Below are positions 1 to 23,505 of a stretch of 36,764 nucleotides of DNA, one piece after another. The stretch lies in contig CATPBP010000014.1 in NCBI GenBank assembly GCA_955652675.1, positions 1 to 36,764 on the forward strand, written 5' to 3'. Both the position numbers and the translations under genes were made by a program. Under the pieces are notes generated by a model. It saw only the letters and a list, made by a program, of their open reading frames with translations. It ran no database searches and was not told where the DNA came from. This DNA is from Candidatus Dormiibacterota bacterium (GTDB taxonomy: Bacteria > Chloroflexota > Dormibacteria > Dormibacterales > Dormibacteraceae). Positions within the stretch are counted from its first letter, which is position 1, and each line of letters begins with the position of its first letter.

Positions 1-2
1 CC

Positions 3-2457: not shown

Positions 2458-2475
2458 GAGGTCATTGAGCCGCCC

Positions 2476-7153: not shown

Positions 7154-7193
7154 AGCGCCATCCCCTCTCTGGGATTCATAGTTTCCAGTTGGC

Positions 7194-7688
7194 CTAGACC
7201 CAGAGTGAGGCAGTTCCGGAGACGCTGGCCGAGAATACGTGACAGCTACCCCAGTAATAACCCCCGTAATGCGTGAGCGTGCCATCGAAGTAGCCGTTGC
7301 TGAGGGGACCTCTGACTTTGTAGTGCTGCTGGCAAGCGCCGGCGAAGTGCCACTCGTCCGTGAACCACACGCCTTCGCGCACGGGCGTATCGGGCCTCGA
7401 ATGTTGGAACTGGCCCACAACCCGCCTGCTGGGGGTCTGGAGGGTAAAGGTCCCGCCGAGGATGTCCGCGTTCGGCAGATCCCCATGGCAGATACGCGCC
7501 CACCAGACCCCCTGCACAGTGCCATGAGCCGTACCGGTGAAGGGACTGCTGGAACCGCCCGGGCAGTTCGGGGGAACCCCGGTCTCCACTCCGTTCAGGT
7601 ATTCAGTTAACCAGGGCGCCGCCGAGGCCCCGACGGGCAGTAACGCCAGCGCCAAACCCACCAGGACACCAGTGAGCAATCTCTTCAT
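7194..7688 (-). CDS. Small secreted Cys-containing protein, unknown function
   Basis: A 164-residue protein with a clear Sec signal peptide: MKRLLTGVLVGLALALLPVG then ASA, with likely cleavage after residue 24. The mature part has four cysteines (PPNCPG, RICHG, GACQQ, WGSCHV), enough for two disulfides, and many aromatic and Gly residues with predicted beta structure. ATG 7688 is preferred over an in-frame ATG five codons upstream because GGGAGG sits 8 nt before it. It is monocistronic, converging on the Tad operon. I do not recognise the family; the features fit an extracellular beta-rich protein. Confidence 0.75.
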   Translation of the reverse strand: MKRLLTGVLVGLALALLPVGASAAPWLTEYLNGVETGVPPNCPGGSSSPFTGTAHGTVQGVWWARICHGDLPNADILGGTFTLQTPSRRVVGQFQHSRPDTPVREGVWFTDEWHFAGACQQHYKVRGPLSNGYFDGTLTHYGGYYWGSCHVFSASVSGTASLWV

Positions 7689-7856
7689 CCCGCTGCCTCC
7701 CAAATGCTCGACGCGACCGCCCTTCTCGTCTCTGTGCGGCCAGGATCTCTAGGATCTGATGGTGGAGCGCCGCTCCCCGCCCCCGATGTTTGGGCAATTC
7801 TCTCCATCCCCGCCAGGATGTCAACCCCCGCGGCGACTCATGTGCCGTGGTCCGGT

Positions 7857-9262: not shown

Positions 9263-9757
9263 TTGGCTGGAAAATCAAGGTCCGGTGCACGGCAAGCCTT
9301 AGCCAATGGCACGGCCCTTCTGGACCAGGTGAACCTCAGGCTCCTCGAGCTGCTGCAGCAGGACCCACGGCTGACGATGGCCGAGCTGGCCAGACGCGTG
9401 GGCATGTCAGCCCCGGCGGTCACCGACCGCGTCCAGCGCCTGGAGCAGGGGGGCGTGATCGCCGGCTACCGGTTGGACGTCGACCCGAAGGCGCTCGGTC
9501 TGCCGATATGCGCCTACGTCCGGGTTCGGCCGGGGCCGCGCCAGCTCCAGAGGATCGCAGAGCTCGCCGTTGCTACACCCCAGGTGATCGAGTGCCACCG
9601 GATCACCGGGGAAGACTGCTTCCTGCTGAAGGTCCGGGTCGCGGCGGTCGATCAGCTGGAGACCATCCTGGATCGCTTTCTTTCCTACGGCCAGACCACC
9701 ACCTCGATCGTGCAGTCCTCGCCCGTGCCGCCTCGATCGCTTCCCCTGGTTCTCTGA
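9263..9757 (+). CDS. Lrp/AsnC-family transcriptional regulator
   Basis: A 164-residue regulator. The N-terminal helix-turn-helix reads NLRLLELLQQDPRLTMAEL then ARRVGMSAPAVTDRVQRLE (about residues 23-63), the standard AsnC-type pattern. The C-terminal part (about 80-155) is the RAM/ligand-sensing domain, with ICAYVRVRPGP, VIECHRITGEDCFLLKVRV and LETILDRFLSYG. The TTG start at 9263 is supported by AGGAG six nt upstream. It is divergent from the EamA exporter, which it probably controls in response to an amino acid. Its stop overlaps the ATG of the following universal stress gene by one base, so the two are co-translated. Confidence 0.92.
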   Translation: MAGKSRSGARQALANGTALLDQVNLRLLELLQQDPRLTMAELARRVGMSAPAVTDRVQRLEQGGVIAGYRLDVDPKALGLPICAYVRVRPGPRQLQRIAELAVATPQVIECHRITGEDCFLLKVRVAAVDQLETILDRFLSYGQTTTSIVQSSPVPPRSLPLVL

Positions 9758-10242: not shown

Positions 10243-13188
10243 TCAGAGGACCTGGCGCCTGGCCAGTTCCTGGAACTGCCCGGACTGAGCCAGCAGCTCT
10301 TCGTAGACGCCGCTCTGGACTATGCGGCCGTCCACCAGGACGACGATCCGGTCGGCATGCATGATCGTGCTCAGCCGGTGCGCGATCACGATCCTGGTCG
10401 CCCTCAGCGCCTCCAGGGCCTGGCTGACAATCGCCTGGGTTTCGTTGTCCAGGGCGCTGGTGGCCTCGTCGAAGAGCAGGATGCGAGGCCGCTGCACGAT
10501 TGCCCGGGCGATCAGGAGCCGCTGCCGCTGTCCTCCGGAGAGTGTGGAGCCCCCCTCCACGATGAAGGTCTGCATGCCCATGGGCATGGCGCGGATGTCC
10601 TCGTCCAGCCCGGCCAGCCCGGCGGCCTCCCAGGCGTCGTCGAGCGTGAGCGTCGAGGTGCCCACGATGTTCTGCAGCACCGAGCCTGGAAAGACCCGGC
10701 TGCTCTGCAGGACGACGCCCAGCTGCCGCCGGACCGCCTGCAGGTCGAGCGTGGCGAGGTCGTGGCCGTCGTAGTGGATGGATCCGCTCTCGGGCGTCTC
10801 GAAGCCGAGAAGCAATCGCATGATGGTCGACTTGCCCGACCCGGAGGGTCCGACCAGGGCCAGGAACTGGCCCTGCCTGACCCGGACCGATACGTCGTCC
10901 AGCACCAGAGGTGCTTCGGGCAGGTAGCGAAATCCGAGACCCGTCAGCTCGATGTCGCCCCTCAGGGCCCCCGGATGCACCCGCTCCCCGCTGACTTCGG
11001 GCATCGCCGCGAGGATTGGACGCGCACTCTCGTAGAGCGGGACCGTCTGGGCCAGGGTGACGGCCGCCATCCCGAGGCCCAGCATCGCCACCAGCCCCTG
11101 CGTGAAGGCGGTGGTGAAGGCGATGAAGGTGCCTGTCTGCATGCCGGCCCCGAAGAGCGAGAAAGCCCCGAAGATGAGCATGGTCGACGCGAGCGGCAGG
11201 GCGCTCAGGATCACATTGATGCGGATGGTCGTGAACTGCGCGCGGGTGGAGAGCCGGCTCTGCTCCGATTGGTTCTCGGCCCAGACCGCGTAGGCTCGCG
11301 GCTCGGCGCCGGCAACCCGGATCTTCGCCATCCCGGTCAGGAACTGGAGTGTGATACCCGCCAGCCTGTTCTGCACCAGGTTGAGGGCGCGCAGTGTCCG
11401 CAGCTGGCGTCCGATCAGCGCGAAGCTCAGGCCCAGCCCGACCGCCACCATGGCGACGGCGACCAGCGCCAGACCCACGTTGTAGAAGAACAGCAGAACG
11501 AAGCTGAAGAGCGAGAAGACGCCGGTCAGCACCGAGGTGGAGACGGTGCCGGTCAGGATCTGACGCAGGTTCGTGAGGCCCATGGCGCGGTTGGCCAGGT
11601 CGCCCGCCGTGTAGCGCCGGAAGAACGGCGCCGGCAGCTTCAGCAGCCGGTCCCAGAGGGCGGACTGCAGGGAGGTGTCGGCGCGGCCTTCGGCTCGCAC
11701 CTGGACGACGCCGCGGGCGATCTGGAGAGCCCCGGTGGCGAGCCCGGTGATCGTCAGCGCCACGACGGCCAGCAGCAGCTGAGGCTGGTTGCCGGTCGGG
11801 AGGATCTCGTTGAAGAGCGGGGCGGTGATGAGCGGGAGGGCCAGCGCCAGCAGGCCGCCGAGCAGGCCGTAGAGACCCATCATGGCCAGGTCGCGGCCGG
11901 CGTCACGGAAGCTGAAGGCGAGCAGCTGTCGGGCGTTGACGGGCCGTTCGGGGAAGTGGCGGTAGAGCACGTGGGCGTCCTGCTCCAGCGTGCCGGCCAG
12001 CCGAGCGTCGAGGCGGGGCCTCTCGGCGCGGCCCGGTTCGGCCAGCACGTAGCCGGAGCGCGGCGCCGGGAGCACCGCCACCGGCCGCAGGGCGCCGTCC
12101 CGACGAACGTAGCCCAGCAGCGGCCCCTGCTCGCGCCTCCACCAGTCGCCGGAGAGCCTGACCCGGCGGGTGCGGATTCGGGAGGCGCGGGCGAGGGCCT
12201 CCAGCGGATCCAGTCCCCGATCGCCCGCTTCGGCCAGGTTGGGAGCAGCGACGGGGAAGCCCTCCACCTCGCCGATCAGGCGGCAGGCGGCCAGGAGCGG
12301 GTCCTCGGGCGCCCCCTCCGGCTTGGCAGGCGGGTGAGGGTCGAAGCTTCGGGCCAGCCGCCAGGAAGCCTCGACCAGATGCCGCCGGTCGGATTCGGAG
12401 CTTCGCGCGAGGCGTTCCGCCTCCCCGCTCTCGACCTGGTCGACCCGGCCCCGAACCTCGCCCAGCGTGCGTGCGTGGAAGAGCTCCAGTCCGGCCGCTA
12501 GCTCGGGTTCGGAGGCCGGCTGCACCGCCTCGCCCGCGACCACCGGAAGGGCTTCTGAGGCGACCAGCCAACCCGACGGCGACAGAGGGAAGGCCGGCAG
12601 GTCCGGCGTCAGGGGGAGGCTGTCGCGGCCGAGGAAGTGCGCGCTGCCGGCCAGAGTCCTCAGCCATACCAGCCCTTCGCCCGCCCGGGCGATGCTTCCG
12701 GCCGCCAGCCTCTGTTCTCCGGCTTTCAGCGGATCGGCGTCGCGCGGTTCGGGCCCGGCGGCTGCCGCAGCGGCCGTGGTCAGGCTCTCGATCCAGGCCA
12801 GGAGCTGGGCGCCTCCGGCGCTGTCCAGGACCAGTCGAAGGACCTGGTTCGCCTCGATCTGCACGACAGCGCTCTCGGGTCCTCCGCTTGCCACCAGGTG
12901 AAGGCCGGCCTCGCCGCCGGCCCGTCCGGTACCCAGCAGGAGGTCGCCCTCATCCACCCTGAAAAGCGGAGCTCGGGCGGCGGGCTCGTCGCCGCCACCG
13001 GAGCGGACGGCGAAGACCTGCAGGGGCCCGCGGCTGACCAGCCAGGCCAGGCGGTCATCCTGCAGCGACAGCGGCCGGTTGCCGGCCGCCGGCAGGGTGA
13101 CCCCGCCTTCCACGAGAGCCGACCAGGGATCACGCGCGGTGGCGGCCGAACCGACCGAGGTCCGCCGGCTCTTGGTCTCTCCGCTCAT
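10243..13188 (-). CDS. NHLP-type bacteriocin export ABC transporter, second permease/ATPase subunit
   Basis: A 981-residue protein of the NHLM ABC2 type found in NHLP-leader peptide clusters. Residues 1 to about 400 form a soluble region with a cyclic-nucleotide/cupin-like start (VFAVRSGGG, FRVDEGDLLLGTG) and a C39-like segment lacking an evident catalytic Cys. About 430-720 is the ABC exporter membrane domain with six helices. About 745-981 is the ATPase: Walker A LVGPSGSGKST (K786), Q-loop VVLQSS, signature LSGGQRQR, Walker B ILLFDEATSALD and the switch His in IAHRLST. Its ATG overlaps the stop of the C39 exporter (13185-13188). It probably pairs with that protein for export of the mature lanthipeptide. 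Confidence 0.93.
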   Translation of the reverse strand: MSGETKSRRTSVGSAATARDPWSALVEGGVTLPAAGNRPLSLQDDRLAWLVSRGPLQVFAVRSGGGDEPAARAPLFRVDEGDLLLGTGRAGGEAGLHLVASGGPESAVVQIEANQVLRLVLDSAGGAQLLAWIESLTTAAAAAAGPEPRDADPLKAGEQRLAAGSIARAGEGLVWLRTLAGSAHFLGRDSLPLTPDLPAFPLSPSGWLVASEALPVVAGEAVQPASEPELAAGLELFHARTLGEVRGRVDQVESGEAERLARSSESDRRHLVEASWRLARSFDPHPPAKPEGAPEDPLLAACRLIGEVEGFPVAAPNLAEAGDRGLDPLEALARASRIRTRRVRLSGDWWRREQGPLLGYVRRDGALRPVAVLPAPRSGYVLAEPGRAERPRLDARLAGTLEQDAHVLYRHFPERPVNARQLLAFSFRDAGRDLAMMGLYGLLGGLLALALPLITAPLFNEILPTGNQPQLLLAVVALTITGLATGALQIARGVVQVRAEGRADTSLQSALWDRLLKLPAPFFRRYTAGDLANRAMGLTNLRQILTGTVSTSVLTGVFSLFSFVLLFFYNVGLALVAVAMVAVGLGLSFALIGRQLRTLRALNLVQNRLAGITLQFLTGMAKIRVAGAEPRAYAVWAENQSEQSRLSTRAQFTTIRINVILSALPLASTMLIFGAFSLFGAGMQTGTFIAFTTAFTQGLVAMLGLGMAAVTLAQTVPLYESARPILAAMPEVSGERVHPGALRGDIELTGLGFRYLPEAPLVLDDVSVRVRQGQFLALVGPSGSGKSTIMRLLLGFETPESGSIHYDGHDLATLDLQAVRRQLGVVLQSSRVFPGSVLQNIVGTSTLTLDDAWEAAGLAGLDEDIRAMPMGMQTFIVEGGSTLSGGQRQRLLIARAIVQRPRILLFDEATSALDNETQAIVSQALEALRATRIVIAHRLSTIMHADRIVVLVDGRIVQSGVYEELLAQSGQFQELARRQVL

Positions 13189-15368
13189 CCGGAAGCTACC
13201 AGGCGGGCGTACACGCCTTCCAGGCCCTTCAGCTCGTCGTGGGTGCCGCGCTGGACGACCTTGCCCTGGTCGAGCACCAGGATCTCGTCGCAGTCCCGAA
13301 TCGTGCTCAGGCGATGGGCGACGATGACACAGGTACAGCCCCGCTCGCGCAGATGGTCGTCGATCTCCTTCTCGGTACTGGGATCAAGCGCCGCGGTGGC
13401 CTCGTCGAGGACCAGGATGCGGGGATCGCCGGTCAGCGCCCGGGCGATCTCCAGCCGCTGGCACTGACCGCCGCTGAAGTTCCGACCACCCTCTTCGACC
13501 GGACTTGCATAGCCGCCCGCGCGACCCGCGACGACGTCGTGCACCTGCGCGTCGTGGGCGGCGGCGACGTAGCTCGCTTCGGGGATGGTCTCTTCCCACA
13601 TCGTCAGGTTCGCCGCGACAGTGCCCTCGAAGAGGAAGATCTCCTGGTCCACCGCGGCCAGTGAGCCCGTGATGGTCGCCCGCGGGTACGCGTCGCGGGG
13701 CTTGCCGTCGAACAGGATCTCGCCCTCCCAGGGTTGGTAGAGACCTGTGATCAGCCGGGCGACCGTTGACTTGCCGGAGCCGGAGCCCCCCACCAGCGCG
13801 ACGCGGGCCCCGGGGTTGAGCTTTACGCTCAGCCGCTCTATGAGCGGAGGGGAGAGCGGGCTGTAGCCGAAGGTGACTTCGCGCAGCTCGAGGGCGCCGG
13901 CCAGCTTCCTGGGGGTGGATGAGCCGTTCGAGGGGACGGTCAGCACGGGATCTGCCGGGTAGCGGAGGACGTCGTCCAGCCGAATCATGCTGCCCTCCGT
14001 CTCCTGAACGGTGGCGCCCAGGCTGACGAGCTGGGTGATGGGCTGGGTGAAGCTGGCCATCAGTATCTGAAAGGCGACCAGCGACCCGATGGAGAGGCTG
14101 CCCACGATCACCCGCTCGCCACCCAGGCCCAGGATCAGGACGGTCGTGAGCACGGCCAGGAGGGCGGGGATCGCGCCCAGCACCTGGGTGGAGACGCCGA
14201 GCTCCTGCTGGGCGTTGAGCGCCTTGGCCTGGAAGCCCGACCAGCGGGAGAAAAAGTCAGAGTCGGTCCCCGTGGCCTTCAGCGTCTCTATGTTCTGCAG
14301 GCCGCCGAAGGCGGTGGAGGTGGCGTTGCCCTGCTCCTTCAGAAGCCGCTGGTTGGCGGCGCGCCGCCGCTCCGAGATAACCCGCAAAGCGACGAAGTTC
14401 AGGAGGCCGACCGCGATGCCGACCAGGGTGAGCACGACGTCGTACTGGAACATGACCGCCGCGTAGAAGACGATGGTCAGCAGCCCCACCATGGCGCTGG
14501 CCAGCTCGCCCGAGAGGAGCTGCGCGATGCGGGTGTTCAACTGCGCCCGGCCGGCAACGTCGCCGGCGAAGCGCATGTTGAAGAAGGTCATGGGCAGGCG
14601 CAGGACATGCCAGAAGTAGCGCCCCGAGCCGCTCAGTGAGATCTTCTGGCCCAGCCGGTACAGGTGGAACTGCTGCAGCCAGGTGAGCAGGACCAGGAGC
14701 ACCACCGTGGCGGCCATTCCCTCCAGGAGCGGGACCAGCCAGTCGTGGACGCCCTGCACCAGGTACTCGTCGATGAAGGTCCGGGTGAAGGCGGGTGCGA
14801 GGAGCCCGGGGACCACCAGGAGCAGGCCGGCGGCGACGACGAAGGCGACCGCGACGCGAGAGCCGGCCAGCCGGCTGCGCAGGCCGGTCCGGAGGTTGTA
14901 CGGCCGGCCGGCCTTCTCGAAGGACGGCTCGGGCGCGAACGTGAGCGCGATGCCGGTGAACGACTCGTCGAACTCGGCGTCGGTCACCGTCCGCCGTCCC
15001 GACGCCGGGTCGTTGACGTACACCCGCCCCCGACCGAAGCCCTCGACCACCAGGAAGTGGTTGAAGTTCCAGAAGACCACGAACGGGGTCTGAAGCCGGT
15101 GCAGGTCCGCGGGCTCCGCCTTGAAGGCGCGGCCCTGGAGCCCGTACTTCTCGCCCGCCTTGATCATGTTCAGCGCGTTGCTCCCGTCCCGGGAGACCCC
15201 GCAAGCCTCGCGCAGCTCCTCCAGGGTGGTGAAGCGGCCGTGGTAGGCGAGGACTATCGAGAGGGCGGCGGCGCCGCACTCGACCGCCTCCATCTGGAGG
15301 ACGGTTGGCGTCCTGACTCGGCGCTGCCGGTGGGGGGTCGCTGTCTGACCCCCGGCTGCCGCGCTCAC
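13185..15368 (-). CDS. NHLP-type C39 peptidase/permease/ATPase bacteriocin exporter
   Basis: A 727-residue peptidase-containing ABC transporter. The C39 domain (about 20-150) has Q25 and the catalytic Cys in QMEAVECGAAAL (C31), the His in NFNHFLVVEG (H104) and the Asp in NDPASG (D120), so the cysteine protease triad is complete. It would cut the precursor after its double-Gly motif. Six membrane helices (about 165-450) follow, then the ATPase: Walker A LVGGSGSGKST (K533), signature FSGGQCQR and Walker B ILVLDEATAALD. The GTG start overlaps the HlyD-like stop; its stop overlaps the next gene's ATG. It acts in the inner membrane on the LanM-modified peptide. Confidence 0.95.
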   Translation of the reverse strand: MSAAAGGQTATPHRQRRVRTPTVLQMEAVECGAAALSIVLAYHGRFTTLEELREACGVSRDGSNALNMIKAGEKYGLQGRAFKAEPADLHRLQTPFVVFWNFNHFLVVEGFGRGRVYVNDPASGRRTVTDAEFDESFTGIALTFAPEPSFEKAGRPYNLRTGLRSRLAGSRVAVAFVVAAGLLLVVPGLLAPAFTRTFIDEYLVQGVHDWLVPLLEGMAATVVLLVLLTWLQQFHLYRLGQKISLSGSGRYFWHVLRLPMTFFNMRFAGDVAGRAQLNTRIAQLLSGELASAMVGLLTIVFYAAVMFQYDVVLTLVGIAVGLLNFVALRVISERRRAANQRLLKEQGNATSTAFGGLQNIETLKATGTDSDFFSRWSGFQAKALNAQQELGVSTQVLGAIPALLAVLTTVLILGLGGERVIVGSLSIGSLVAFQILMASFTQPITQLVSLGATVQETEGSMIRLDDVLRYPADPVLTVPSNGSSTPRKLAGALELREVTFGYSPLSPPLIERLSVKLNPGARVALVGGSGSGKSTVARLITGLYQPWEGEILFDGKPRDAYPRATITGSLAAVDQEIFLFEGTVAANLTMWEETIPEASYVAAAHDAQVHDVVAGRAGGYASPVEEGGRNFSGGQCQRLEIARALTGDPRILVLDEATAALDPSTEKEIDDHLRERGCTCVIVAHRLSTIRDCDEILVLDQGKVVQRGTHDELKGLEGVYARLVASG

Positions 15369-16195
15369 CGCGCCTCTGGCAGCACCAGGCTGATCGGGTG
15401 CTGCTGCGAGACGGCGACCGACACCGAGGCGAGCGTGCCTGCCGTGATGACCGCGTCCGGGCCCCGCGACGACGACCAGCGGTAGCCGCTGGGCGTCCCA
15501 GCATCCGGCTTGAGCGCCAGGTGGACCTCGACCGGGGAGCTGCCCGCCTGGTTCAGGAAGAGCTGGACCAGGTTCTGGTTCTGGAGCAGCCGCATCATGC
15601 CCGGCGGGCTGGAGAGAAAGGGCGCCACGTAGTCGACGCTGGCCAGCATGTAGCCGTACTGCTGGGGGCTGTAGCTGCTGGGCGCGACCTCGGCCTGCAT
15701 CCCGGTCCTGATCTGCTTGCCGACCGAGGCCGGGAAGAACACCACGAGCTCGAGCGGGTTCTGGCTCTCCTCCAGGTTGAGGACCCCGGCGGCGACGGAG
15801 ACGAGCTGACCGGGATTGACCAGGAGCTCGAGCACCTTTCCGCTGTAAGGGCTGATCACGTTGATGGGAGAACCGTCCGCACCCGGCAGCGGCGTCACCT
15901 GGGCCACGACCTGGCCCTGGGACACCTGCTGGCCGACCCCTACCGAGACCGACTGAACCTGGCCGGCCGAGGGAGTCTGGACGGCGAAGAGACCGCCGCC
16001 CCGGATGAACATGCCCTGCTCGCTGATGCTCGTGGCCACCGTGCCGAAGAGGCCCCAGACCACCGCCGAGCCCACGACGGCTCCGATCGCCAGCAGCGCG
16101 ATCCAGCTCCGGCGCGAGGTTATGCGCATGAGCTGGTCCAGCTGCTCCGGCGAGGAGAGGCGGTCGAGCGAGCGCTGTCTGAAGATCGTGCCCAT
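15365..16195 (-). CDS. HlyD-like membrane fusion protein of NHLP bacteriocin export
   Basis: A 276-residue adaptor protein of the NHLM HlyD type. A cytoplasmic N-terminus (about 1-30) leads to one membrane helix (SWIALLAIGAVVGSAVVWGL, about 31-50). The lipoyl/barrel-sandwich half-motifs are VQTPSAGQVQSVSVGVGQQV and INVISPYSGKVLELLVNPGQ, typical of this family. The open frame extends further upstream, but ATG 16195 overlaps the LanM stop (ATGA) and gives the expected N-terminus. It is shorter than classical HlyD and lacks a long coiled coil, as is usual for NHLP clusters. It probably bridges the two ABC subunits to the outside. Confidence 0.9.
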   Translation of the reverse strand: MGTIFRQRSLDRLSSPEQLDQLMRITSRRSWIALLAIGAVVGSAVVWGLFGTVATSISEQGMFIRGGGLFAVQTPSAGQVQSVSVGVGQQVSQGQVVAQVTPLPGADGSPINVISPYSGKVLELLVNPGQLVSVAAGVLNLEESQNPLELVVFFPASVGKQIRTGMQAEVAPSSYSPQQYGYMLASVDYVAPFLSSPPGMMRLLQNQNLVQLFLNQAGSSPVEVHLALKPDAGTPSGYRWSSSRGPDAVITAGTLASVSVAVSQQHPISLVLPEAR

Positions 16196-19100
16196 CAGCT
16201 CGGCTCGAAGACGAGGACGCAGGGCAGCTCCGGCTGGGCCAGCCTCAGGAGCTGGTAGCCGATGCCCGACAGGCCCTGGAAGAACCCGGGCGCGTAGTCC
16301 TCGGAACCCACGCCCGGGGCAAGCCGGAAACGGCCTCCGGGCCGCTCTACCAGAGTCCTGCCGGCAAGATCGCGGGCGGCCTCTTCCAGCTCGGGACTGG
16401 CGAGCACCAGGCCGCCGAGGTTCAGAGCTTCGACGCGTCCCAGGGCGCCGCAGCAGACCTGGTCGAAGAGCCCTCGCCCGGCCGCCTTTGTGGTCTGCAT
16501 GGCAGCCGCCAGGTCGGCTCGCACCTGAGCCGAGTCGAGCACCCCGAGGCCGGCCAGGCGGCCTAGCCCGACGCCCGCGGCACCGTGGCACCAGGCGCTG
16601 ATCACGCGCACTGGAGCGGACGCTCCCGGTGGCGACGGTCGCAGGTCGGGCCAGTTGGCCTCGTCCGGGCGGAAGATGGCTGCCTCGTAGGCAATGCCCT
16701 CCTCCGCCGCGGCAAGGAAGTCGGCCCTTTCGGTGACCACCGAGAGTCTGGCCAGGGCGTAGGCGATGCCTGCCGCGCCGTGGGCGAAACCCGCCAGCGG
16801 CTGCTCGCCGTGAGACTTCCAAGCGCGCGGACCGGAGGGCGTCGGAGCGCGGCGGTCGAGCAGATGCTCGCCGCACCAGAGCGCCCTGATCAGGGCCTCT
16901 TCGCTGCCGGTCGCTTCGTGGAGCGAGAGCAGCCCGAGCAGGGCGCCAGCCGCCCCGGCCACCACGTCGAGATCGCGGTCGGCCGCGACGCGGTCCCTCG
17001 TGATCCCGGACGCTGCGGCCTGGGCGGCGCGGACCAGGTCCGGCTCTCTGAGAAGCCGGGCGCACGTGACCAGGCCGTAGACGATCGAGGCGCAGCCGGC
17101 GGCTCCGCCGATGCCGGCTTCCTCCACGACGTTCTCGGGGCACTCGCGGAGCGCGGAGAGGACCGGGCTCAGCGCTCCCAGCGCAAGCTCCCGGAACCTT
17201 GGATCTGCGGTGACCCAGGCGGTCGCGGCGAAAAAGACGGCGACGCCGCACTGCCCACCGTAGAGATCCAGGCCGACCGGCCGCAGCGAGGTGCGGCCGG
17301 TCCGATCGTCGAACCCGAGACCGATCCACGCCAACCCACCGTCAGGCGCCTCGATCGCCAGGCGCTCCAGGCGATCCGCGATCACCAGCGCCTCTTCGGC
17401 GAAGGCGAGGTAGCCAGGGGATCCCGTGCCCTCCTCGCCTGCGTCATCCGGGTCCGCCGGACCTGCGTCATCGGGGCCGGCCGGAACCTCGAGGGCCATC
17501 GGAGCCCGGGCCTCGAGGGCGAGCCGGACCAGGGTGGCCTGCCGCTCCCTATCCGCCTGGTCGAACCCGCGAATCCGCTCCACAGCGTGCTCCAGCGGAG
17601 AGGCGGCGAAGACCTCGGCGGTGACCTCGGCGGTGCCGCCGCGGCCGGTTTCGATGGTCCGGCCCATGGCGGGCACTGAGAAGCGCGGTATGTCACCCTG
17701 CTCCAGGCTGGCCTGCTCCTCGGGGTGAAGCGCCCGGAAGGGGTGGGCCTCCTCTGTCTTCAGAAAGACGCGAGCCGAGCGCTCCAACTCGAGACTAAAG
17801 TCGGCCCCGTCTCTCAGCGCTCCCGCAGCCATTGCGGCGTCGAGGATCCTCTGGTAGACGAGCGTCGGGCGGAAGATGAAGCGGACGCTCGTGTCCTCGA
17901 GCGCCGCGAGGGGCCCGTCTGGCGCCAGCATGAGGTCTCGGCGCTCCTCCAGCAGCCGGTGCATGTCGCGAAAGCCTGCCTCGACCTCAGAGGAGAACTG
18001 CCAGGGAAGCAGAGTCCGCTCGCCCAGCCGAACCGCGTTCACAGGGACCGGCAGATCCTCGAACACGCGGTCCAGGGTCATGGCGTCGGTGTTCACGCGC
18101 TGCCAGCGGGGCGTGAGGATGACGGACTCCCGTTGGTCCACGCCGCCCAGGCCGCTGATGTCGATGCTCCGCCCCTCTCCTGCACCGGTCCAGGCGGGAA
18201 GGAAGTCGGATTCCAGCACCGATTCCTCCATCCAGCGGCGGGCCGCGGTTCGCGCCCCCGCCACCTCGTCTGGGCCGCCGTGGGGCTGCACCCGCGGGTG
18301 GAGCAGGGTCTCGGCGTCGACCAGGACAGGCTGCTCCCCGGCCGCCACCACGTTGTGCTGGTGACAGTCGGTGCTGCCGAGGCCGTAGAAGAGGGCGGTC
18401 AGCATGCCTGCCCGCCGAAAGTAACGGCGGCCGGCGGCCTCGTCGGCCACGCCCTGCTGCTCCACCTGCTTCACCCAGCCGTACCCCGGTCGAGCCAGGA
18501 CTTCGGCAGCCTGCAGCGGGAGGTCGACGCCCTGCTCGTTGATCCACGCGACCAGCTGCGCGTAGCCCCGCTCGAGACCGACGTCGCGCGGCTTGTAGAG
18601 GACTTTGAGACCGGAGGCGAAGGTCAGGCGAAGCACCGAGCGGCCGCCCTCGTGAGGGTCGGACAAGCCGGTCGCGATGGCCTGCACCGAGCCCTGGCCG
18701 GCGCCGCCCGCGAAGGCCGCTTCCAGCTCCGGACGGTCGGTCTCCAGCCGGCGAATGAATTCTGCGGTGGACTCGATCCAGGCCAGGGTGGCCCTGGATG
18801 TCAGGCGGGCGAGCGCCGGGTACTCTTCCAGCAACCCCTCCAGCCCGCCGTCCAGGACTTCTCGGACGAAGGCGCGGTATTCGCTGTCGGTTTCACCGGC
18901 CAGCGCCACCAAGCGACTGAGGCCGGTGCCTGCACCGCCCCGCCGGATGGCGAACTCCATGTAGAGCAGCGGTGCGCAGAGAGCGCTGAGGCGGGTGAGG
19001 AGCGCTCGCTCCAGACCCAGGCGAGCGCCGCTGCCGAGGCCGCCGGTGTTGGGATGGACGAACGCATAGAGGTTCGCGGCGGCCGTCTCCAGGAAGGGTT

Positions 19101-19485
19101 GGAGGACCTCCTGGAAGGGGATGGCAGGCTCGAGCGTCAGCGCGTCATGGGGGTCCCCGTCGCCGGCCGCGGCTGCGGCACGCGCGAGCACCAATTCCAG
19201 CAGTGACGCCCAGGGGGGTGTCGGCTCCGGCTGCGAGGTTGGCTGGCCGAGAGCGCTCAGCGCGCTCTCGGTGGAGAGGCCGTCCCAGGCCAGACGGCGT
19301 TCGAGGATTGACGGCTCGCCGGCGGCCGCGACCTGGCACCATCTGTGCAGCCGTGCCCTGGCGAGCCGGCCGTCGCCGGAGGTCGCGACGACACCTCCCA
19401 GCCGCTCTCGGAGCGTGCTGGCGCGCGTCACGACGCCGGGCAAAAACCCGGACGGGAGGAGTGGCGAGACGATTGTGGTGGACAC
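16195..19485 (-). CDS. lanM: Class II lanthipeptide synthetase LanM, CCG-type
   Basis: A 1096-residue bifunctional enzyme that dehydrates Ser/Thr in the precursor and forms (methyl)lanthionine rings. The N-terminal dehydratase (about 150-720) has the kinase-like active site motif STDCHQHN (D373, H375, N378) and VLVDAETL (D390, E392). The C-terminal LanC-like cyclase (about 735-1090) has the HG motif in GFAHGAAG (H902), SAWCHG (C966) and VCCGALG (C1011, C1012, G1013). In most LanMs the last motif is CHG; a CCG motif, giving three Cys zinc ligands, marks the ProcM-like group known for relaxed substrate use. The start is GTG 19485, with a weak ribosome-binding site. It lies 93 nt after the precursor gene, with a hairpin between, and overlaps the HlyD-like gene. 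Confidence 0.96.
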   Translation of the reverse strand: MSTTIVSPLLPSGFLPGVVTRASTLRERLGGVVATSGDGRLARARLHRWCQVAAAGEPSILERRLAWDGLSTESALSALGQPTSQPEPTPPWASLLELVLARAAAAAGDGDPHDALTLEPAIPFQEVLQPFLETAAANLYAFVHPNTGGLGSGARLGLERALLTRLSALCAPLLYMEFAIRRGGAGTGLSRLVALAGETDSEYRAFVREVLDGGLEGLLEEYPALARLTSRATLAWIESTAEFIRRLETDRPELEAAFAGGAGQGSVQAIATGLSDPHEGGRSVLRLTFASGLKVLYKPRDVGLERGYAQLVAWINEQGVDLPLQAAEVLARPGYGWVKQVEQQGVADEAAGRRYFRRAGMLTALFYGLGSTDCHQHNVVAAGEQPVLVDAETLLHPRVQPHGGPDEVAGARTAARRWMEESVLESDFLPAWTGAGEGRSIDISGLGGVDQRESVILTPRWQRVNTDAMTLDRVFEDLPVPVNAVRLGERTLLPWQFSSEVEAGFRDMHRLLEERRDLMLAPDGPLAALEDTSVRFIFRPTLVYQRILDAAMAAGALRDGADFSLELERSARVFLKTEEAHPFRALHPEEQASLEQGDIPRFSVPAMGRTIETGRGGTAEVTAEVFAASPLEHAVERIRGFDQADRERQATLVRLALEARAPMALEVPAGPDDAGPADPDDAGEEGTGSPGYLAFAEEALVIADRLERLAIEAPDGGLAWIGLGFDDRTGRTSLRPVGLDLYGGQCGVAVFFAATAWVTADPRFRELALGALSPVLSALRECPENVVEEAGIGGAAGCASIVYGLVTCARLLREPDLVRAAQAAASGITRDRVAADRDLDVVAGAAGALLGLLSLHEATGSEEALIRALWCGEHLLDRRAPTPSGPRAWKSHGEQPLAGFAHGAAGIAYALARLSVVTERADFLAAAEEGIAYEAAIFRPDEANWPDLRPSPPGASAPVRVISAWCHGAAGVGLGRLAGLGVLDSAQVRADLAAAMQTTKAAGRGLFDQVCCGALGRVEALNLGGLVLASPELEEAARDLAGRTLVERPGGRFRLAPGVGSEDYAPGFFQGLSGIGYQLLRLAQPELPCVLVFEPS

Positions 19486-19510
19486 AGTGATCTTGTGTTG
19501 GTCAACGGGG

Positions 19511-19549
19511 CCGGCGGCGCTGTAACAGTTGGTTACTGGGCGCCGCCGG
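19511..19549 (-). promoter_or_regulatory. Long stem-loop between precursor gene and lanM
   Basis: Arms CCGGCGGCGC (19511-19520) and GCGCCGCCGG (19540-19549) are perfectly complementary over 10 bp. The loop holds a further GTAAC/GTTAC pairing, so the hairpin is very stable. It lies in the 93-nt gap between the precursor stop and the LanM start. No T-run follows on the transcribed strand, so a partial terminator, an RNA processing site or an mRNA stabiliser is more likely than a full terminator. RiPP operons often use such an element to make more precursor than enzyme. Confidence 0.6.
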
Positions 19550-19578
19550 GCTCCTATTGGTGTGTGTTCGCTAGGCCG

Positions 19579-19872
19579 CTAGCAGCTGCACTGGTTGCTG
19601 CTGCTGGACCAGGTGATCCCGCCGCCGGCGACCGCGCCCACCTCCTCCTCTGAGAGCTCGCGAGAGCCCGTATCCGCGGGAGGCAGCACGAGGTACATGG
19701 TGCCCGGGGTCTCTTCGACGACCTCGATGCGCACCGTACCCGGCAGCGAGACGCCTAGCACCTGCTGCAGCGCCCCATGTGGGTCGGCGATGAGCTGACT
19801 CCGGAAGGACTCGTCCTTCATGGCCCGCTCCACAACCCTGGCTTCCATATCGCTTCGAAAATCCGCAGCCAT
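19579..19872 (-). CDS. NHLP-leader lanthipeptide precursor peptide
   Basis: A 97-residue precursor. Residues 1-84 are a nitrile-hydratase-like (NHLP) leader: AMKDESFRSQLIADPHGAL, then VLGVSLPGTVRIEVVEETPG, TMYLVLPP and the acidic ELSEEEVGAVAGG, which match the family pattern (kA-x-DexFRxqLxaDP, LPxxvxVxVvEeTpxtxyLVLPp, ELsdeEL-x-xVaGG). After the double Gly comes the core GITWSSSSNQCSC, with Thr87, Ser89-92, Ser96 and Cys95/Cys97. ATG 19872 is chosen over an upstream in-frame ATG because AGGAG stands 6-7 nt before it. It is the first gene of the lanthipeptide operon; LanM is expected to dehydrate the core and the C39 exporter to cut at GG. Confidence 0.94.
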   Translation of the reverse strand: MAADFRSDMEARVVERAMKDESFRSQLIADPHGALQQVLGVSLPGTVRIEVVEETPGTMYLVLPPADTGSRELSEEEVGAVAGGGITWSSSSNQCSC

Positions 19873-20196
19873 GTCTACTCCTGAAGTGGATGTGACCCGG
19901 CGGTGTTCGGCCATGCGCCGAGGGCCACCGCTGGCCGCTGGAAAGGCAACCGCAGTGTCAGTGGACGAGGAGTGCCGTTCCTGTTAACCGGATGCGGTAT
20001 TTCGCGAACGATCCGGCGACTGCGGCGAGGTACCCCCTACCCCCGCCCTCCAATGACCCCCACCCCCGGCCCACGGCCGGGTACTCCCCCGACTTCCCGG
20101 TCCGACTTCGCGGGGGAGAGAAGGGAGGACTGATCTTGTATTCAAAACCGGCCCGCAAAGCGGGCCGGTGCTAACCTGCGTCGTCCTCGTCACCGC
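19873..20196. promoter_or_regulatory. Divergent intergenic region between precursor operon and LLM gene
   Basis: This 324-nt stretch without a convincing gene separates the leftward lanthipeptide operon from the rightward LLM oxidoreductase gene and must contain both promoters. I see AGGAG before the precursor ATG, and three palindromes in the right half: CCCGGCC-CAC-GGCCGGG (20065-20081), CTCCCCCG...CGGGGGAG (20084-20118) and a 9-bp perfect hairpin at 20148-20168. No clear -35/-10 pair stands out on either strand. A shared control region would fit co-expression of the LLM enzyme with the peptide cluster, but this is inference. Confidence 0.5.
20148..20168. repeat. Perfect 9-bp hairpin, possible leftward terminator
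   Basis: CCGGCCCGC-AAA-GCGGGCCGG forms a perfect 9-bp stem with a 3-nt loop. Read on the minus strand it is followed by TTTTGAATAC, so it looks like an intrinsic terminator for leftward transcripts. It sits 28 nt before the ATG of the rightward LLM gene, so it could instead be a 5' untranslated hairpin of that gene. It would insulate the peptide operon from leftward read-through. Confidence 0.5.
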
Positions 20197-21447
20197 ATGG
20201 AATTCGGGCTCTTCTCACAACACCACAGGCCTGCTCGGAGCGTCGCCGACGCGTACGAGGAAGACCTGTTCGAGGTGGTCGCCGCCGACCAGCTCGGCTA
20301 TCGCGAGGCGTGGATAAGCGAGCACGCGTTTCCCGCGGAGCTCTTCATCTGCAAGGCCGCGGCCCTAACCCGCAGCATCCGCCTGGGACCGGGCGTCAGG
20401 CCGCTGGCAATCCACCACCCCTTACAGGTCGTGACCGAGGCCAACGCCTGCGACCAGCTCACGCGCGGGCGATACCAGTTCGGTTTCGGGCTGGGTGGGC
20501 AGCTGGGCGGCCCCCGAAAGCTGGAACAGCGGGGGTTGGGCGACGACAGCCAGCGCCGGGCGCGCATGTGGGAGGCGATCGGCTTCATCCGCCAGGCCTG
20601 GGCCTCTGCGGAGCCCTTCGACTTCGAGGGCGCTTTCTGGCAGGGCACCGGGATCACCGTCCAGCCACCCTCGTATCAGTTTCCGCACCCGCCGATCGCC
20701 ATCTCCACGGGCGGCAGCGCCGAGACGCTGGAGGTGGCCGGGAGGGAAGGCTTCGCGCTTCTGCTGGGCCAGAACGACGACGGGAGAAGCGTGGCCGAGA
20801 TGCTCGCGGGCTATTCGGCGGCGGCAGCCGAGGCCGCCAGACTGCGCCCGCGTGATGACGTCCGGCTCTCGCGGCTGGTGTATGTGGCGGAGCGAACCGA
20901 CCAGGCCATCTCGGATCTCCGGTCCGCCGTCGGCCCCCAGCTGGAGAGCGAGCGCGAGCTGGTGCGCCAGCACCTGGAAAGCGCGGCCAGGGAGGGTCAT
21001 GAGCCGGGATCGGACCGTTTCGAACGCGATCCCGTCCTCCGCACGGGCTCCAGGATTCTGGCCGAGCTCGGCGCCGACGACCCCAAGGCGCTGACCCTGG
21101 AGGCGCTGGCCGAGAGCGGGTACTACCTGGTTGGCGACCCCGACACGGTGGCCGGTCACGTCCGCCGGCTGTTCGACGCCACGGGAGGCTTCGGCACCCT
21201 GCTCCTCCTCGCCGGCCGGGACCTGGCCGCGCGCGACGGCCGTCTGCGCTCACTCCGCCTCTTCATGGAGCAGGTCGCTCCGGCGGTCCGGGACCTGAGA
21301 CCGCCGCCCACGACGCCTTTAGCCGGCGCCGGCGTAACGGGCGATGGGTTCCAGGCAGAGGGCGGTGGTCAGCTCTTCGGAACCGAACCAGACGCTGCGC
21401 GGAAGCGGCGGCCGGGGTCCGCTGTAGAACGCGAGCCTCGGCCATGA
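20197..21447 (+). CDS. LLM-class flavin-dependent oxidoreductase (luciferase-like)
   Basis: A 416-residue TIM-barrel protein of the bacterial luciferase-like superfamily. It opens MEFGLFSQHHRP, followed by the barrel strands GYREAWISEHAF, IRLGPGVRPLAIHHPLQVVTEANACDQLTRGR and YQFGFGLGGQ. The mid-barrel substrate region holds PPIAISTGGSAETLEVAGREG. Family members use FMN or F420 and transfer hydride or oxygen. The last approximately 43 residues (after PAVRDLRPPP) are low-complexity and lie antisense to the 3' end of the next gene, a 129-bp convergent overlap. It is divergent from the lanthipeptide operon, so it may be a tailoring enzyme such as a LanJ_C-like dehydroalanine reductase. The cofactor cannot be told by eye. 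Confidence 0.88.
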   Translation: MEFGLFSQHHRPARSVADAYEEDLFEVVAADQLGYREAWISEHAFPAELFICKAAALTRSIRLGPGVRPLAIHHPLQVVTEANACDQLTRGRYQFGFGLGGQLGGPRKLEQRGLGDDSQRRARMWEAIGFIRQAWASAEPFDFEGAFWQGTGITVQPPSYQFPHPPIAISTGGSAETLEVAGREGFALLLGQNDDGRSVAEMLAGYSAAAAEAARLRPRDDVRLSRLVYVAERTDQAISDLRSAVGPQLESERELVRQHLESAAREGHEPGSDRFERDPVLRTGSRILAELGADDPKALTLEALAESGYYLVGDPDTVAGHVRRLFDATGGFGTLLLLAGRDLAARDGRLRSLRLFMEQVAPAVRDLRPPPTTPLAGAGVTGDGFQAEGGGQLFGTEPDAARKRRPGSAVEREPRP

Positions 21448-22278
21448 CCCGTCGCCACACTGGGTGTCGAGGATGTGGTCGACCTGCTCGTCGAGCAGCT
21501 CCACCTCCGCCTCACAGTTCAGAAGGGTCGCGGCGGCGAGGGCGGAGCTCAGCGGATCTCGAGCGCGGGGTCGCGTGGCGCACCGGTCGGAGACCCGGGT
21601 CAGCAGGTGCTCACGGCAGTCCCGCAGCGGCCCCTCGCCGTGGTACGCGGCGCGCGACACCGCATGGTCGAGAGCGAGCGGGTCCGGGTAATACCAGGAG
21701 CCTAGCTCGGACTCGGGTGACTCGATGAGCGAACGCAGGTACTCACAGGCGCGGGCGCTCTCTGGGCGGCCGCCCAGGTACAGGATCACGTTGGCGTTGA
21801 CGACACCGTCCACGTCGTTGTCCTCCTCCGGCGGCCCGACCCAGGTCAGGAACCGCCCCCGGCCGTCCCGGTTGGCGGCGACCAGGGCACTGCAATCGCG
21901 GGCATGCCGGCCGTACCGGGCCAGCGTCCAGGAGGCACAGGAAGTGTCATCGAGATCCGGCGGCAGCAGCGAGCGCTTCGGATTGAGTTTCGTCCAGTAC
22001 CGCCAGAGACCCTGCTCGTCCTGCTCACCGGAGAGAAATCCGAGCGCCCTCTCGATGGTGCCGTCCAAACCCTCCAGGTCTGCCGCGGGCAGCTCGTTCA
22101 GCGCCTGGAGCACAAAAGTGGTCACGAACGGTGTGCTGTCCACCACCGGTTCCAGCACCAGGCGCGGATCCACTGAGAGCACGGTTCGGAATTCGCCAGT
22201 CGGCAGCTGTGCCAACCTCAGGAACTCCGCAGCCCGCCGGCCGGCGGCGCGACACGCCGCGACCCGGGTCGCCTTCAA
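21319..22278 (-). CDS. Alpha-toroid protein with DxDD motif, class II terpene cyclase/prenyltransferase-like
   Basis: A 319-residue alpha/alpha-toroid protein of the prenyltransferase/squalene-cyclase repeat superfamily. Visible features are TPFVTTFVLQALNEL (inner-helix pattern), the acidic motif PPDLDDTSCASWTLARYG with DxDD at residues 108-111, and a QW-like repeat QCGDGSWP near residue 270. DxDDT protonates the prenyl substrate in class II diterpene cyclases and hopene cyclases. The protein is only about half the length of those enzymes, so it may be a single-domain form. The start TTG 22278 is chosen for a GAGGG site 7 nt upstream; upstream in-frame codons would run into the divergent neighbour. 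Substrate and activity are unknown. Confidence 0.78.
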   Translation of the reverse strand: MKATRVAACRAAGRRAAEFLRLAQLPTGEFRTVLSVDPRLVLEPVVDSTPFVTTFVLQALNELPAADLEGLDGTIERALGFLSGEQDEQGLWRYWTKLNPKRSLLPPDLDDTSCASWTLARYGRHARDCSALVAANRDGRGRFLTWVGPPEEDNDVDGVVNANVILYLGGRPESARACEYLRSLIESPESELGSWYYPDPLALDHAVSRAAYHGEGPLRDCREHLLTRVSDRCATRPRARDPLSSALAAATLLNCEAEVELLDEQVDHILDTQCGDGSWPRLAFYSGPRPPLPRSVWFGSEELTTALCLEPIARYAGAG

Positions 22279-22281
22279 TCG

Positions 22282-23505
22282 ATGCCCTCGCAAGCCGGGG
22301 ACATGATAGGCGCCGGCAGGCAGCGATTGGGCGCCGAGTCCACCGTGGGCGACGCCGTACGCGCTACGGCTCCGTTGGGCTACCCGGCCGGCATCTTCTC
22401 GGCTGAAGGCCTGGCCCGCGTCGAGGCGGTCGCCGACCAGCTGCCCGGCAGGCTGACCTCCACCTTCGGCTTCGAGGTCGAGCTTGGGAAGCCGCCCGGC
22501 GGCGCAGATTTCGCCCTGGCTGTGACCGGCCTCCACGGCGGTCGCGAGATGCTTGCCGGCAGCTCGGATTTCGAGTTTCGGCTGGCCTCCTCTGAGCAGC
22601 CGGCCTGGGCTGCCGTGCGCGCGCTCAGCCAGGCCTGGGCGGATCCCCTGTCAGGCCTGGACGCCGAGCTCCACAACCTGGCACTTGAGTTCGACCTCAC
22701 CGAGGGCGTGGAAGGAGTGCCCCCGCCCAACGTCTTCCTGGGAGCCCGCTCTGGGATCTCGGCGGACAGCCCCATGGACCGCCGCCGGGAGGAGAGGAGC
22801 TGGGCCTGGCTCTTCGACGCTGCCCTACCCGTCCTCCGCGGACGACTATCCAGGAGCCAGCGCGACACTCTGGGCCGCTGCTTCCATTCCCTGCCGTCGG
22901 GGTCGCGTGCCTTCCAGATCGGCGTGATGCTCGCTCGCCCGGTAGAGGCGCTGCGGGTGTGCATCCTCGGCCTGAGCTACGACAAGGTCTCCGGGTACCT
23001 CGAGAGCATCGGCTGGCCGGCGGACCCACAGGAGCTGGATGAACAGGTGGCGCCCCTGCTGGAGCGGGCAGAGTCGGTGATCGTCGACATCGACGTCGCC
23101 GACTCTGTAATGCCCTCCATAGGGATCGAATGCTTCCTCGGAGAGGAGAACGCTGGAAGGGGCAACGGAGCGCCGGGGACGGAGGAACATTGGTCGAGGT
23201 TTCTGGAGCCGCTGGTGGAGCATGGGCTCTGCACGCCTGAGCGCCGGCAGGCGCTGCTCGACTGGCCGCTCACAGCTGTCGAGTCTCGCGCCCGCACCTG
23301 GCCGGCACATCTCAGGGACGCCTCGCGGTTTCTGGGGGCGGACCTCGAAAGCTCGCTGGTACGGGCGATGAACCACGTGAAGCTCAGCTGGCGACCGGAC
23401 CGCCCTCTGCAGGCCAAGGCGTACCTCCGCGTCCAGCACCGCTGGCGCCCCGCCGCCAGCCCCATCGGCCGCCCCCTGGTTCCCTCGCCCTTGCGGGGAG
23501 GGTAA
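22282..23505 (+). CDS. Unrecognised conserved-looking protein, about 400 residues
   Basis: A 407-residue soluble protein with no signal peptide or membrane helix. An N-terminal alpha/beta region (about 30-150, with FGFEVELGKPPGG and LHNLALEFDLTEGV) precedes a central segment RAFQIGVMLARPVEALRVCI, the motif VMPSIGIECFLGEE (about 275-288), a helical part LVEHGLCTPERRQALLDWPL and a C-terminal VKLSWRPDRPLQAKAYLRV. Codon use is like the neighbours. The first ATG (22282) lies 3 nt from the divergent toroid gene start; ATG 22303 is an alternative. The last residues (PSPLRGG) are encoded by a dispersed palindrome. I cannot name the family; pairing head-to-head with the toroid gene suggests a shared pathway. 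Confidence 0.75.
   Translation: MPSQAGDMIGAGRQRLGAESTVGDAVRATAPLGYPAGIFSAEGLARVEAVADQLPGRLTSTFGFEVELGKPPGGADFALAVTGLHGGREMLAGSSDFEFRLASSEQPAWAAVRALSQAWADPLSGLDAELHNLALEFDLTEGVEGVPPPNVFLGARSGISADSPMDRRREERSWAWLFDAALPVLRGRLSRSQRDTLGRCFHSLPSGSRAFQIGVMLARPVEALRVCILGLSYDKVSGYLESIGWPADPQELDEQVAPLLERAESVIVDIDVADSVMPSIGIECFLGEENAGRGNGAPGTEEHWSRFLEPLVEHGLCTPERRQALLDWPLTAVESRARTWPAHLRDASRFLGADLESSLVRAMNHVKLSWRPDRPLQAKAYLRVQHRWRPAASPIGRPLVPSPLRGG
23482..23502. repeat. Palindromic element at the 3' end of the unrecognised gene
   Basis: CCCTCGCCC-TTGC-GGGG-AGGG forms a near-perfect stem and includes the last codons of the gene ending at 23505. A sister copy with nearly the same sequence lies at 31385-31404. 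It resembles the intergenic REP-like palindromes whose translation gives a PSPLRGG-type tail. It may also serve as a terminator. Confidence 0.5.

Follow-up and report, generated by a model that had tools for sequence, protein, structure and literature searches.

What might a lanthipeptide operon make when it is flanked by a flavoenzyme, a terpene-cyclase-like toroid and a protein that no family profile recognises? The question is posed by positions 10,243 to 23,505 of contig CATPBP010000014.1 from a Candidatus Dormiibacterota bacterium, of which a stretch of 36,764 nucleotides (the window) was analysed. An initial annotation had suggested a reduced or prenyl/terpene-decorated lanthipeptide; the prenyl/terpene part of that suggestion has gained support, while the part resting on the flavoenzyme, a luciferase-like monooxygenase (LLM), has not. 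Our preferred reading, which we hold at somewhat better than even, is that two genes form a terpenoid tailoring module within a class II lanthipeptide cluster. The module and its proposed target comprise the following features:

22282-23505 (+), the formerly unrecognised protein, an ABBA (prenyltransferase-barrel, PT-barrel) prenyltransferase according to predicted structure and fold searches
21319-22278 (-), the toroid, a single-domain class II terpene cyclase according to profile matches to class II cyclases
21946-21957 (-), the DLDD acid motif at toroid residues 108-111, from sequence and alignment
19609-19611 (-), the codon of the precursor's core Trp, the putative prenyl acceptor, from sequence

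The first of these proteins does escape family profiles, as had been claimed. At E ≤ 1 neither Pfam nor NCBIfam offers a match to its full frame, its conserved domain (about 22384-23442, with a profile match spanning 22381-23442) matches no NCBIfam family at 0.01, and the best match among PDB sequences, with an E-value of 0.13 over 30 residues, is not meaningful. Its fold, on the other hand, is recognisable. An AlphaFold2 model computed from a nine-sequence alignment of the family that includes the window's protein (A3; its six-row forerunner is A1) has a mean predicted local distance difference test score (pLDDT) of 81.8 and a predicted TM-score (pTM) of 0.84, and shows ten long strands, paired two by two and separated by helices, as five β-β-α-α units. 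When the model was compared with the PDB by Foldseek, ranks 1-34 were all ABBA prenyltransferases (best E 9e-6, CloQ) of bacterial, cyanobactin (PatF, KgpF, LimF, PagF) and fungal origin, at modest TM-scores of 0.34-0.46 by query length. VIA-align 2, a re-examination of Foldseek's own match list, superposed 279 residues on CymD with a Z-score of 15.9 and a root-mean-square deviation of 3.8, and gave a Z-score of at least 8 for 127 of 999 chains. The Glu and Asp of a LEFD motif, two Arg, and a Lys and a Tyr on the last strands are invariant in A3 or A1; such charged residues in ABBA enzymes bind the diphosphate and activate the acceptor. The predicted structure thus makes an ABBA fold nearly certain, and a wholly new fold was rejected since the model and both fold searches led to ABBA prenyltransferases. 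This assigns a likely function to a protein that is missed by Pfam, NCBIfam and PDB sequence searches.

On what does this enzyme act? Relatives were collected at 31 loci, namely the window, four plasmids, eight named genome contigs, five loci of the same phylum and 13 of cyanobacteria. Within the phylum, 5 of 301 genomes carry the family, the window's own among them, and the five further loci come from four genomes (G117, G147, G233 and, twice, G206). Among cyanobacteria 14 of 339 genomes matched and thirteen further loci were counted, with Nostoc UHCC 0926 and Pseudanabaena FACHB-1998 each entered once. The named hosts belong to Cyanobacteriota, Pseudomonadota, Bacillota (Sporomusa) and Synergistota. 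Weak matches in G028, G057 and G059 (E 0.002-0.007, short stretches) had been excluded before any count; two of them contain an internal stop and the third reads as a TIM-barrel enzyme. A search of genome contigs with the single sequence gave no confirmed match. Markers of ribosomally synthesised and post-translationally modified peptides (RiPPs) were scanned for in stretches that mostly reached 10 kb to either side of the homologue and were shorter on short contigs. They were found at 27 of the 31 loci, as follows (NHLP, nitrile hydratase leader peptide):

LanM, 11 of 31 loci: window, L007, L008, L009, L013, L014, L015, L016, L061, L062, L063 (L007 and L015 with partial matches only)
kinase-like enzyme with a LanC domain, taken as class III/IV (LanKC-like): L011
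YcaO: L012
radical SAM enzyme and RiPP precursor: L010, L018, L019, L020, L065
NHLP or Nif11 precursors or exporters: L059, L060, L066, L068, L071, L073, L074
lasso-type clusters with an Asn synthase: L067, L070

No marker was seen in the stretches of L017, L069, L072 and L075, of which L017 and L075 come from contigs shorter than 5 kb and L072 holds the weakest relative of all (tblastn 1e-4). The family is therefore found mostly in RiPP clusters, across four named phyla besides the window's genome, and a RiPP substrate is very probable. The initial annotation had regarded the occurrence of the neighbouring genes in relatives without a LanM cluster as an argument against a shared pathway. The prenyltransferase does occur in this way, beside LanKC-like, YcaO, radical SAM and lasso-type enzymes, and the toroid is also present without an ABBA prenyltransferase; we take this as a sign that the tailoring enzymes are portable, and not as a refutation.

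The precursors of these clusters point to the acceptor. A core Trp is present at 19 of 21 prenyltransferase loci with a readable precursor, and at 14 of the 21 it is the terminal residue of the core. The corresponding numbers are 5 and 1 among ten comparison loci, which have a precursor and no prenyltransferase match nearby (Fisher p 0.02 for Trp present and 0.006 for terminal Trp, relatedness ignored). The 21 loci are those whose precursor was detected by two small hidden Markov models; the precursors of L010, L011 and L016 lie outside the count, and L070 (weak match) and L071 (a leader fragment without core) were excluded. The comparison loci were sorted by eye, with Nif11 proteins lacking a core and wrong frames set aside, and some of their genomes have a prenyltransferase elsewhere. 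In the window, the leader terminates in VAGGG and the core, ITWSSSSNQCSC, contains one Trp, five Ser, one Thr and two Cys; the single Trp stands at position 3, as it does in the core of L063. We infer that the core Trp is the likely prenyl acceptor.

The second gene of the module encodes the toroid, for which the listed frame extends to 22536 and the profile match is restricted to 21328-22272. As a single sequence it gave weak squalene-cyclase matches (Pfam 11.7 bits against a cut-off of 26.1) and, in the PDB, drimenol synthase at 3.6e-6. A profile of seven toroids including the window's (A4) matched drimenol synthase (9mhs, 1.6e-26), AstC (22ty, 2.3e-16), 8paj and 1gsz, squalene-hopene cyclases (1.9e-15 and 5.5e-13), MstE (0.02-0.05) and, more weakly, copalyl diphosphate synthases. 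The DxDD motif that had been claimed is there as DLDD, in the context P-P-D-L-D-D-T with Asp at residues 108, 110 and 111, and D108 and D110 are invariant in all seven aligned toroids. When co-occurrence was examined, as the initial annotation had proposed, a toroid was found at 14 of the 31 prenyltransferase loci (by profile or Pfam; that of L018 rests on a below-cut-off Pfam score) and LanM at the 11 listed above, whereas the LLM gene did not recur.

A DxD-type motif is present in 4 of these 14 toroids: DLDD in the window, DLDS in L012, DADT in L063 and DADS in L016, so that a prenyltransferase and a toroid with such a motif recur within one RiPP cluster at these loci. The closest analogue, L063 from a cyanobacterial genome, has a precursor, the prenyltransferase, the toroid, a second prenyltransferase and LanM; the toroid's open frame lies 11 bases past the prenyltransferase, and the precursor is NHLP-like (41.4 bits, below cut-off) with the core CTWGVSCQSSSN. 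L016 (Sphingomonas trueperi) combines the prenyltransferase, a toroid above the Pfam cut-off and LanM. L012 (G147), from the window's phylum, carries the prenyltransferase, YcaO, NHLP exporters and a toroid (12909-14261) whose N-terminal domain resembles an NHLP leader (TIGR03793, 42.1 bits against a cut-off of 50.9). It also encodes a Trp-halogenase-like enzyme and a precursor with the core LCCCW, and the fusion of a leader to a tailoring enzyme is odd.

The proposed lanthipeptide scaffold would come from the operon on the other side. As had been claimed, a complete operon of the NHLP/class II lanthipeptide type occupies 10243-19914 (-), and each part of it scored above its curated cut-off in family searches:

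19579-19914 (-), precursor, NHLP-type, 111 residues, TIGR03793 81.5 bits against a cut-off of 50.9
16195-19485 (-), LanM, class II lanthipeptide synthetase, TIGR03897 746 bits against a cut-off of 304
15365-16195 (-), HlyD-type membrane-fusion protein of NHLP systems, TIGR03794 245 bits against a cut-off of 156.2
13185-15368 (-), NHLP exporter ABC1 with C39 leader peptidase, TIGR03796 1040 bits against 853, and PF03412
10243-13188 (-), NHLP exporter ABC2, TIGR03797 860 bits against a cut-off of 709

Pfam recognises a DUF4135 dehydratase (PF13575) and a LANC_like domain (PF05147) in LanM, whose C-terminal region carries the motifs WCHG and VCCG, which we take to be its zinc ligands. The open frame of the HlyD-type gene is longer than listed, and on our reading the gene probably starts at an ATG near 16195. 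The LLM (+), toroid (-) and prenyltransferase (+) genes are intact frames in the places and alternating orientations initially given. Overlaps between neighbouring genes are only apparent, because the homology bounds are narrower than the frames and the overlaps lie outside the matched parts. The source genome (4.2 Mb in 283 contigs, 92% complete) was found to contain one LanM. The operon might be controlled by an Lrp/AsnC-type regulator encoded at 9263-9757 (+), some 480 bases beyond its last gene and separated from that gene by another frame.

From these parts the following pathway can be proposed. LanM would dehydrate and cyclise the NHLP precursor at Ser/Thr and Cys, as its family membership suggests. 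The ABBA prenyltransferase would place a prenyl group, probably of C10-C20, on the single core Trp with the leader still attached. The toroid, for which family and motif are observed and substrate and order are conjectural, would protonate the attached chain and fold it into rings; that the attached chain is its substrate seems to us a moderately favoured assumption. Any dehydroalanines left over might be converted to D-Ala by the LLM enzyme, and the C39 exporter, again from family membership, would cut the leader behind GG and export the product. Lipidated macrocyclic peptides attract interest as drug leads. With the prenyltransferase and the cyclase encoded separately, each step could be tested and swapped by itself, which is hard with a fusion enzyme.

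Several observations weigh against this pathway. The LLM, toroid and prenyltransferase genes alternate in orientation, and in the published prenyltransferase-cyclases the two activities are fused, whereas here they are separate genes. No more than 10 loci make up the comparison set for Trp, and half of them have it; L009, L065 and the presumed lasso precursors have Tyr in the core and no Trp. A single-sequence structure prediction of the window's toroid reached a pLDDT of only 39. A DxD-type motif is missing from 10 of the 14 toroids near the prenyltransferase's relatives, of which eight are of a 600-residue type (cyanobacteria, Azospirillum) and two are fusions with a flavin adenine dinucleotide (FAD) oxidase (L018, L019), and a cyclase role for these ten is doubtful. 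Genomes G164, G280 and G326 carry a DxDD-type toroid and gave no ABBA prenyltransferase match (0 of 3), and no RiPP marker was found at the toroid loci L026, L027 and L028 (for L027, four frames only were sent to Pfam). An LLM homologue was found at none of the 30 other loci (tblastn, E 1e-3), and the LLM enzyme as a shared partner was rejected on this count.

As to the motif-less toroids, the 600-residue partner (PsTor, A5) was kept as a toroid on an hhalign probability of 96.8 (E 2e-10) and weak profile matches; it has no Pfam match, no credible PDB match and no DxDD. The FAD-fused toroids align weakly with the window's family (hhalign 54.6%), and the sole DxD-type regular-expression match in L018 falls in the FAD part. 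Beside the prenyltransferase in L019:7639-10873 and L018:1899-5260 is a fusion of an FAD amine-oxidase-like domain with a squalene-cyclase-like toroid that has DSALV in place of DxDD.

The combination of genes had been described as one not known, and here the literature says otherwise: prenyltransferases with terpene cyclases that act on a RiPP Trp have been published, as has a lanthipeptide prenyltransferase. According to a review, NctPC joins an ABBA prenyltransferase and an MstE-like cyclase in one protein, which attaches a C20 chain to Trp and then cyclises this chain; ChrPC is a trans-isoprenyl diphosphate synthase-like prenyltransferase fused to a cyclase, which prenylates an internal Trp and then cyclises (PMC13290415). 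The window resembles NctPC, by the latter's description, in its ABBA prenyltransferase, class II-type cyclase, RiPP precursor and (putatively) Trp acceptor, and differs in having two genes on opposite strands plus an LLM gene; by profile its toroid is nearer to drimenol synthase and AstC than to MstE. The proposed pathway is like that of ChrPC in that an internal Trp is first prenylated and the chain then cyclised; ChrPC differs in having another prenyltransferase fold and in being fused. MppC, from the mpp cluster of Moorena producens PAL, adds a geranyl group to a core Trp of a Nif11-led peptide that LanM has cyclised, and depends on the leader to do so (PMC12715784). Compared by description only, it is like the window's enzyme an ABBA prenyltransferase in a LanM cluster, and prenylation of a core Trp after ring formation and the need for a leader recall our proposal; unlike the window, it has a Nif11 leader, and its source mentions no terpene cyclase and does not describe the geranyl product as cyclised (PMC12715784). 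Drimenol synthase (9mhs) and AstC (22ty), the toroid's best profile matches, share its DxD-type acid motif and are longer chains with a HAD part (9mhs entry title), whereas the window's toroid is a single domain. Hubrich et al. 2024 (Chem 10:3224), the source paper for NctPC and ChrPC, reportedly describe fused prenyltransferase-terpene cyclase maturases, cyclised geranylgeranyl groups and a minimal proteusin cluster. Across the 31 loci, no single frame gave matches to a toroid profile and the prenyltransferase profile together. The window would accordingly belong to a published kind, set apart by its separate genes, by a cyclase that scores nearer to drimenol synthase and AstC, by the pairing of LanM and an NHLP leader, and by the presence of an LLM gene. 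Among the titles, abstracts and papers examined we found no lanthipeptide with split prenyltransferase and cyclase, but Hubrich et al. 2024 may list such clusters, and we do not claim that the arrangement is new to the literature.

Could the last two steps run in the opposite order, with the toroid cyclising a free prenyl diphosphate and the ABBA enzyme then transferring the cyclic group to the peptide? The best solved relatives of the toroid, drimenol synthase and AstC, and the weaker copalyl diphosphate synthases act on the free diphosphate. An ABBA pocket would, however, need room for a bulky ring system, the NHLP-leader-like domain on the L012 toroid hints at peptide-directed action, and NctPC and ChrPC transfer to Trp before they cyclise (PMC13290415); we consider the reversed order quite unlikely. 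It is improbable, too, that the lanthipeptide is prenylated only and that the toroid belongs elsewhere or has another role. No toroid was found at 17 of the 31 prenyltransferase loci (three of them contigs shorter than 5 kb), and the toroid family also occurs at loci where no RiPP marker was seen; against this stand its presence at the other 14, including the nearest analogues L063 and L012, and the intact DLDD of the window's toroid. The alternating gene orientation would suit a still different arrangement, in which the toroid and the prenyltransferase make a separate small molecule, such as a prenylated and then cyclised indole, and lie near the lanthipeptide operon by chance. ABBA enzymes and single-domain class II cyclases do occur in small-molecule meroterpenoid pathways, examples being the hapalindole enzymes and MstE. 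With RiPP markers at 27 of 31 loci of the prenyltransferase family, and no indole- or tryptophan-pathway family among 20 further frames of the window (Pfam; 8 matched anything), this explanation appears very improbable.

The role of the flavoenzyme in the preferred pathway is conjectural:

20197-21447 (+), LLM-class flavoenzyme, PF00296 136 bits, E 2.8e-39

The family match covers residues 1-327 (20197-21177), and the final 90 or so residues lie outside it, their end overlapping the toroid gene. Of 25 NCBIfam matches none exceeds its own cut-off. In lanthipeptide clusters, LxmJ is an F420-dependent LLM reductase that converts dehydroalanine to D-Ala (PMC8498797), LanJC of birimositide is a luciferase-like dehydroalanine reductase, and the LanJA reductases of other clusters belong to the zinc-type alcohol dehydrogenase superfamily (PMC7268733). 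Like LanJC and LxmJ, the window's LLM gene adjoins a lanthipeptide operon, here one whose core has spare Ser; unlike them, it has no subfamily match above cut-off, and CofG (TIGR03550), which stands for F420 supply, was not found in the 92% complete genome, which speaks against an F420-dependent reductase. Only a reductase of the LxmJ type would require F420, and a flavin-dependent reduction of dehydroalanine is possible. Dehydroalanine reductase is our first guess and prenyl oxidase our second, the latter meaning an enzyme that readies the chain for the toroid, for example by epoxidation. The FAD amine-oxidase-like domains fused to the toroids of L018 and L019 beside a prenyltransferase, as well as the missing CofG, would fit such an oxidase. 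We nevertheless think it unlikely: a DxDD cyclase requires no epoxide, dehydroalanine-reducing LLM enzymes are known from lanthipeptides (LxmJ, PMC8498797; LanJC, PMC7268733), and 8 of the 30 other loci have a zinc-type alcohol dehydrogenase, of the LanJA superfamily, which the LLM enzyme could replace. NCBIfam gave no LanJA name to the zinc-type dehydrogenases of L008 and L015, the two tested. A plasmid search with the LLM sequence found nothing at 1e-20; at 1e-6 it yielded 95 records, of which none covered 80% of the query. The named features among the 20 matches listed were LLM oxidoreductases and one limonene monooxygenase.

A broader idea, which we put forward tentatively as possible rather than probable, is that a portable mix-and-match module builds terpenoid RiPPs: the toroid recurs, while the prenyltransferase (ABBA, or isoprenoid-synthase-like as suspected in L028-L030), the ring-former (LanM, LanKC-like, YcaO, radical SAM or lasso-type) and the leader are swapped. 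The window would then be a split-gene terpenoid lanthipeptide, in which the LLM enzyme replaces the zinc reductase or FAD enzyme of relatives.

Other prenyltransferase loci showed arrangements of their own. At L008, L013, L014 and L059-L062 a metallo-beta-lactamase-like protein, a 2-oxoglutarate (2OG)-Fe oxygenase, the prenyltransferase and a 600-residue toroid recur as a block, and the Nif11 precursors there end in KW. The prenyltransferase frame of L008, like that of L013, continues into a 2OG-like part. At L015:9908-12199, beside LanM and NHLP exporters, the prenyltransferase frame is open, 764 residues long, and continues into a zinc-type alcohol dehydrogenase. In G206 the prenyltransferases of L073 and L074 adjoin precursors whose cores, MIIVW and MIIMW, are five residues long. 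At L067:5228-15716 and L070:6948-14170 the ABBA prenyltransferase lies within lasso-type clusters, in which reading by eye also picked out a P450-like gene, a small protein resembling PqqD and presumed precursors that have Tyr close to their end. At L069:9014-10513 a 104-residue frame ending in EKGLW directly precedes the prenyltransferase and no further RiPP gene was seen; this is possibly a two-gene system.

The toroid family is wider than the system described here, since it is also present without an ABBA prenyltransferase or a RiPP marker. In the window's phylum it was found in 5 of 400 genomes, the window's own among them, and also on 2 plasmids; a search of viral contigs confirmed none. 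Among 24 genomes bearing the prenyltransferase, the toroid profile matched fully in the window's genome and G147 only and partially in G455, a search that missed toroids found by the locus scan (for example in G524 and G458), so that its absences are not proof. L026 and L027 contain glycosyltransferase, sulfotransferase and ABC transporter genes. In L028 (G280, 2-4120) a trans-prenyl synthase (geranylgeranyl diphosphate synthase 1wy0, 8.6e-13) lies near a toroid with DIDS; the order of trans-prenyl synthase, PDZ/membrane/GAF/HD-GYP sensor (read by eye) and toroid recalls ComQ-ComP quorum sensing plus a cyclase. L029:6823-10718 and L030 (G326 and G164) combine a DxDD toroid, an unrecognised protein and a leader-like frame of 71-72 residues ending in GSTW or GTQWG, with a weak NHLP match of 24.9 bits in G326. 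The L029 protein at 6823-7800 is isoprenoid-synthase-like by eye only, and Pfam and PDB searches gave nothing credible for it. These two loci possibly represent a minimal terpenoid RiPP.

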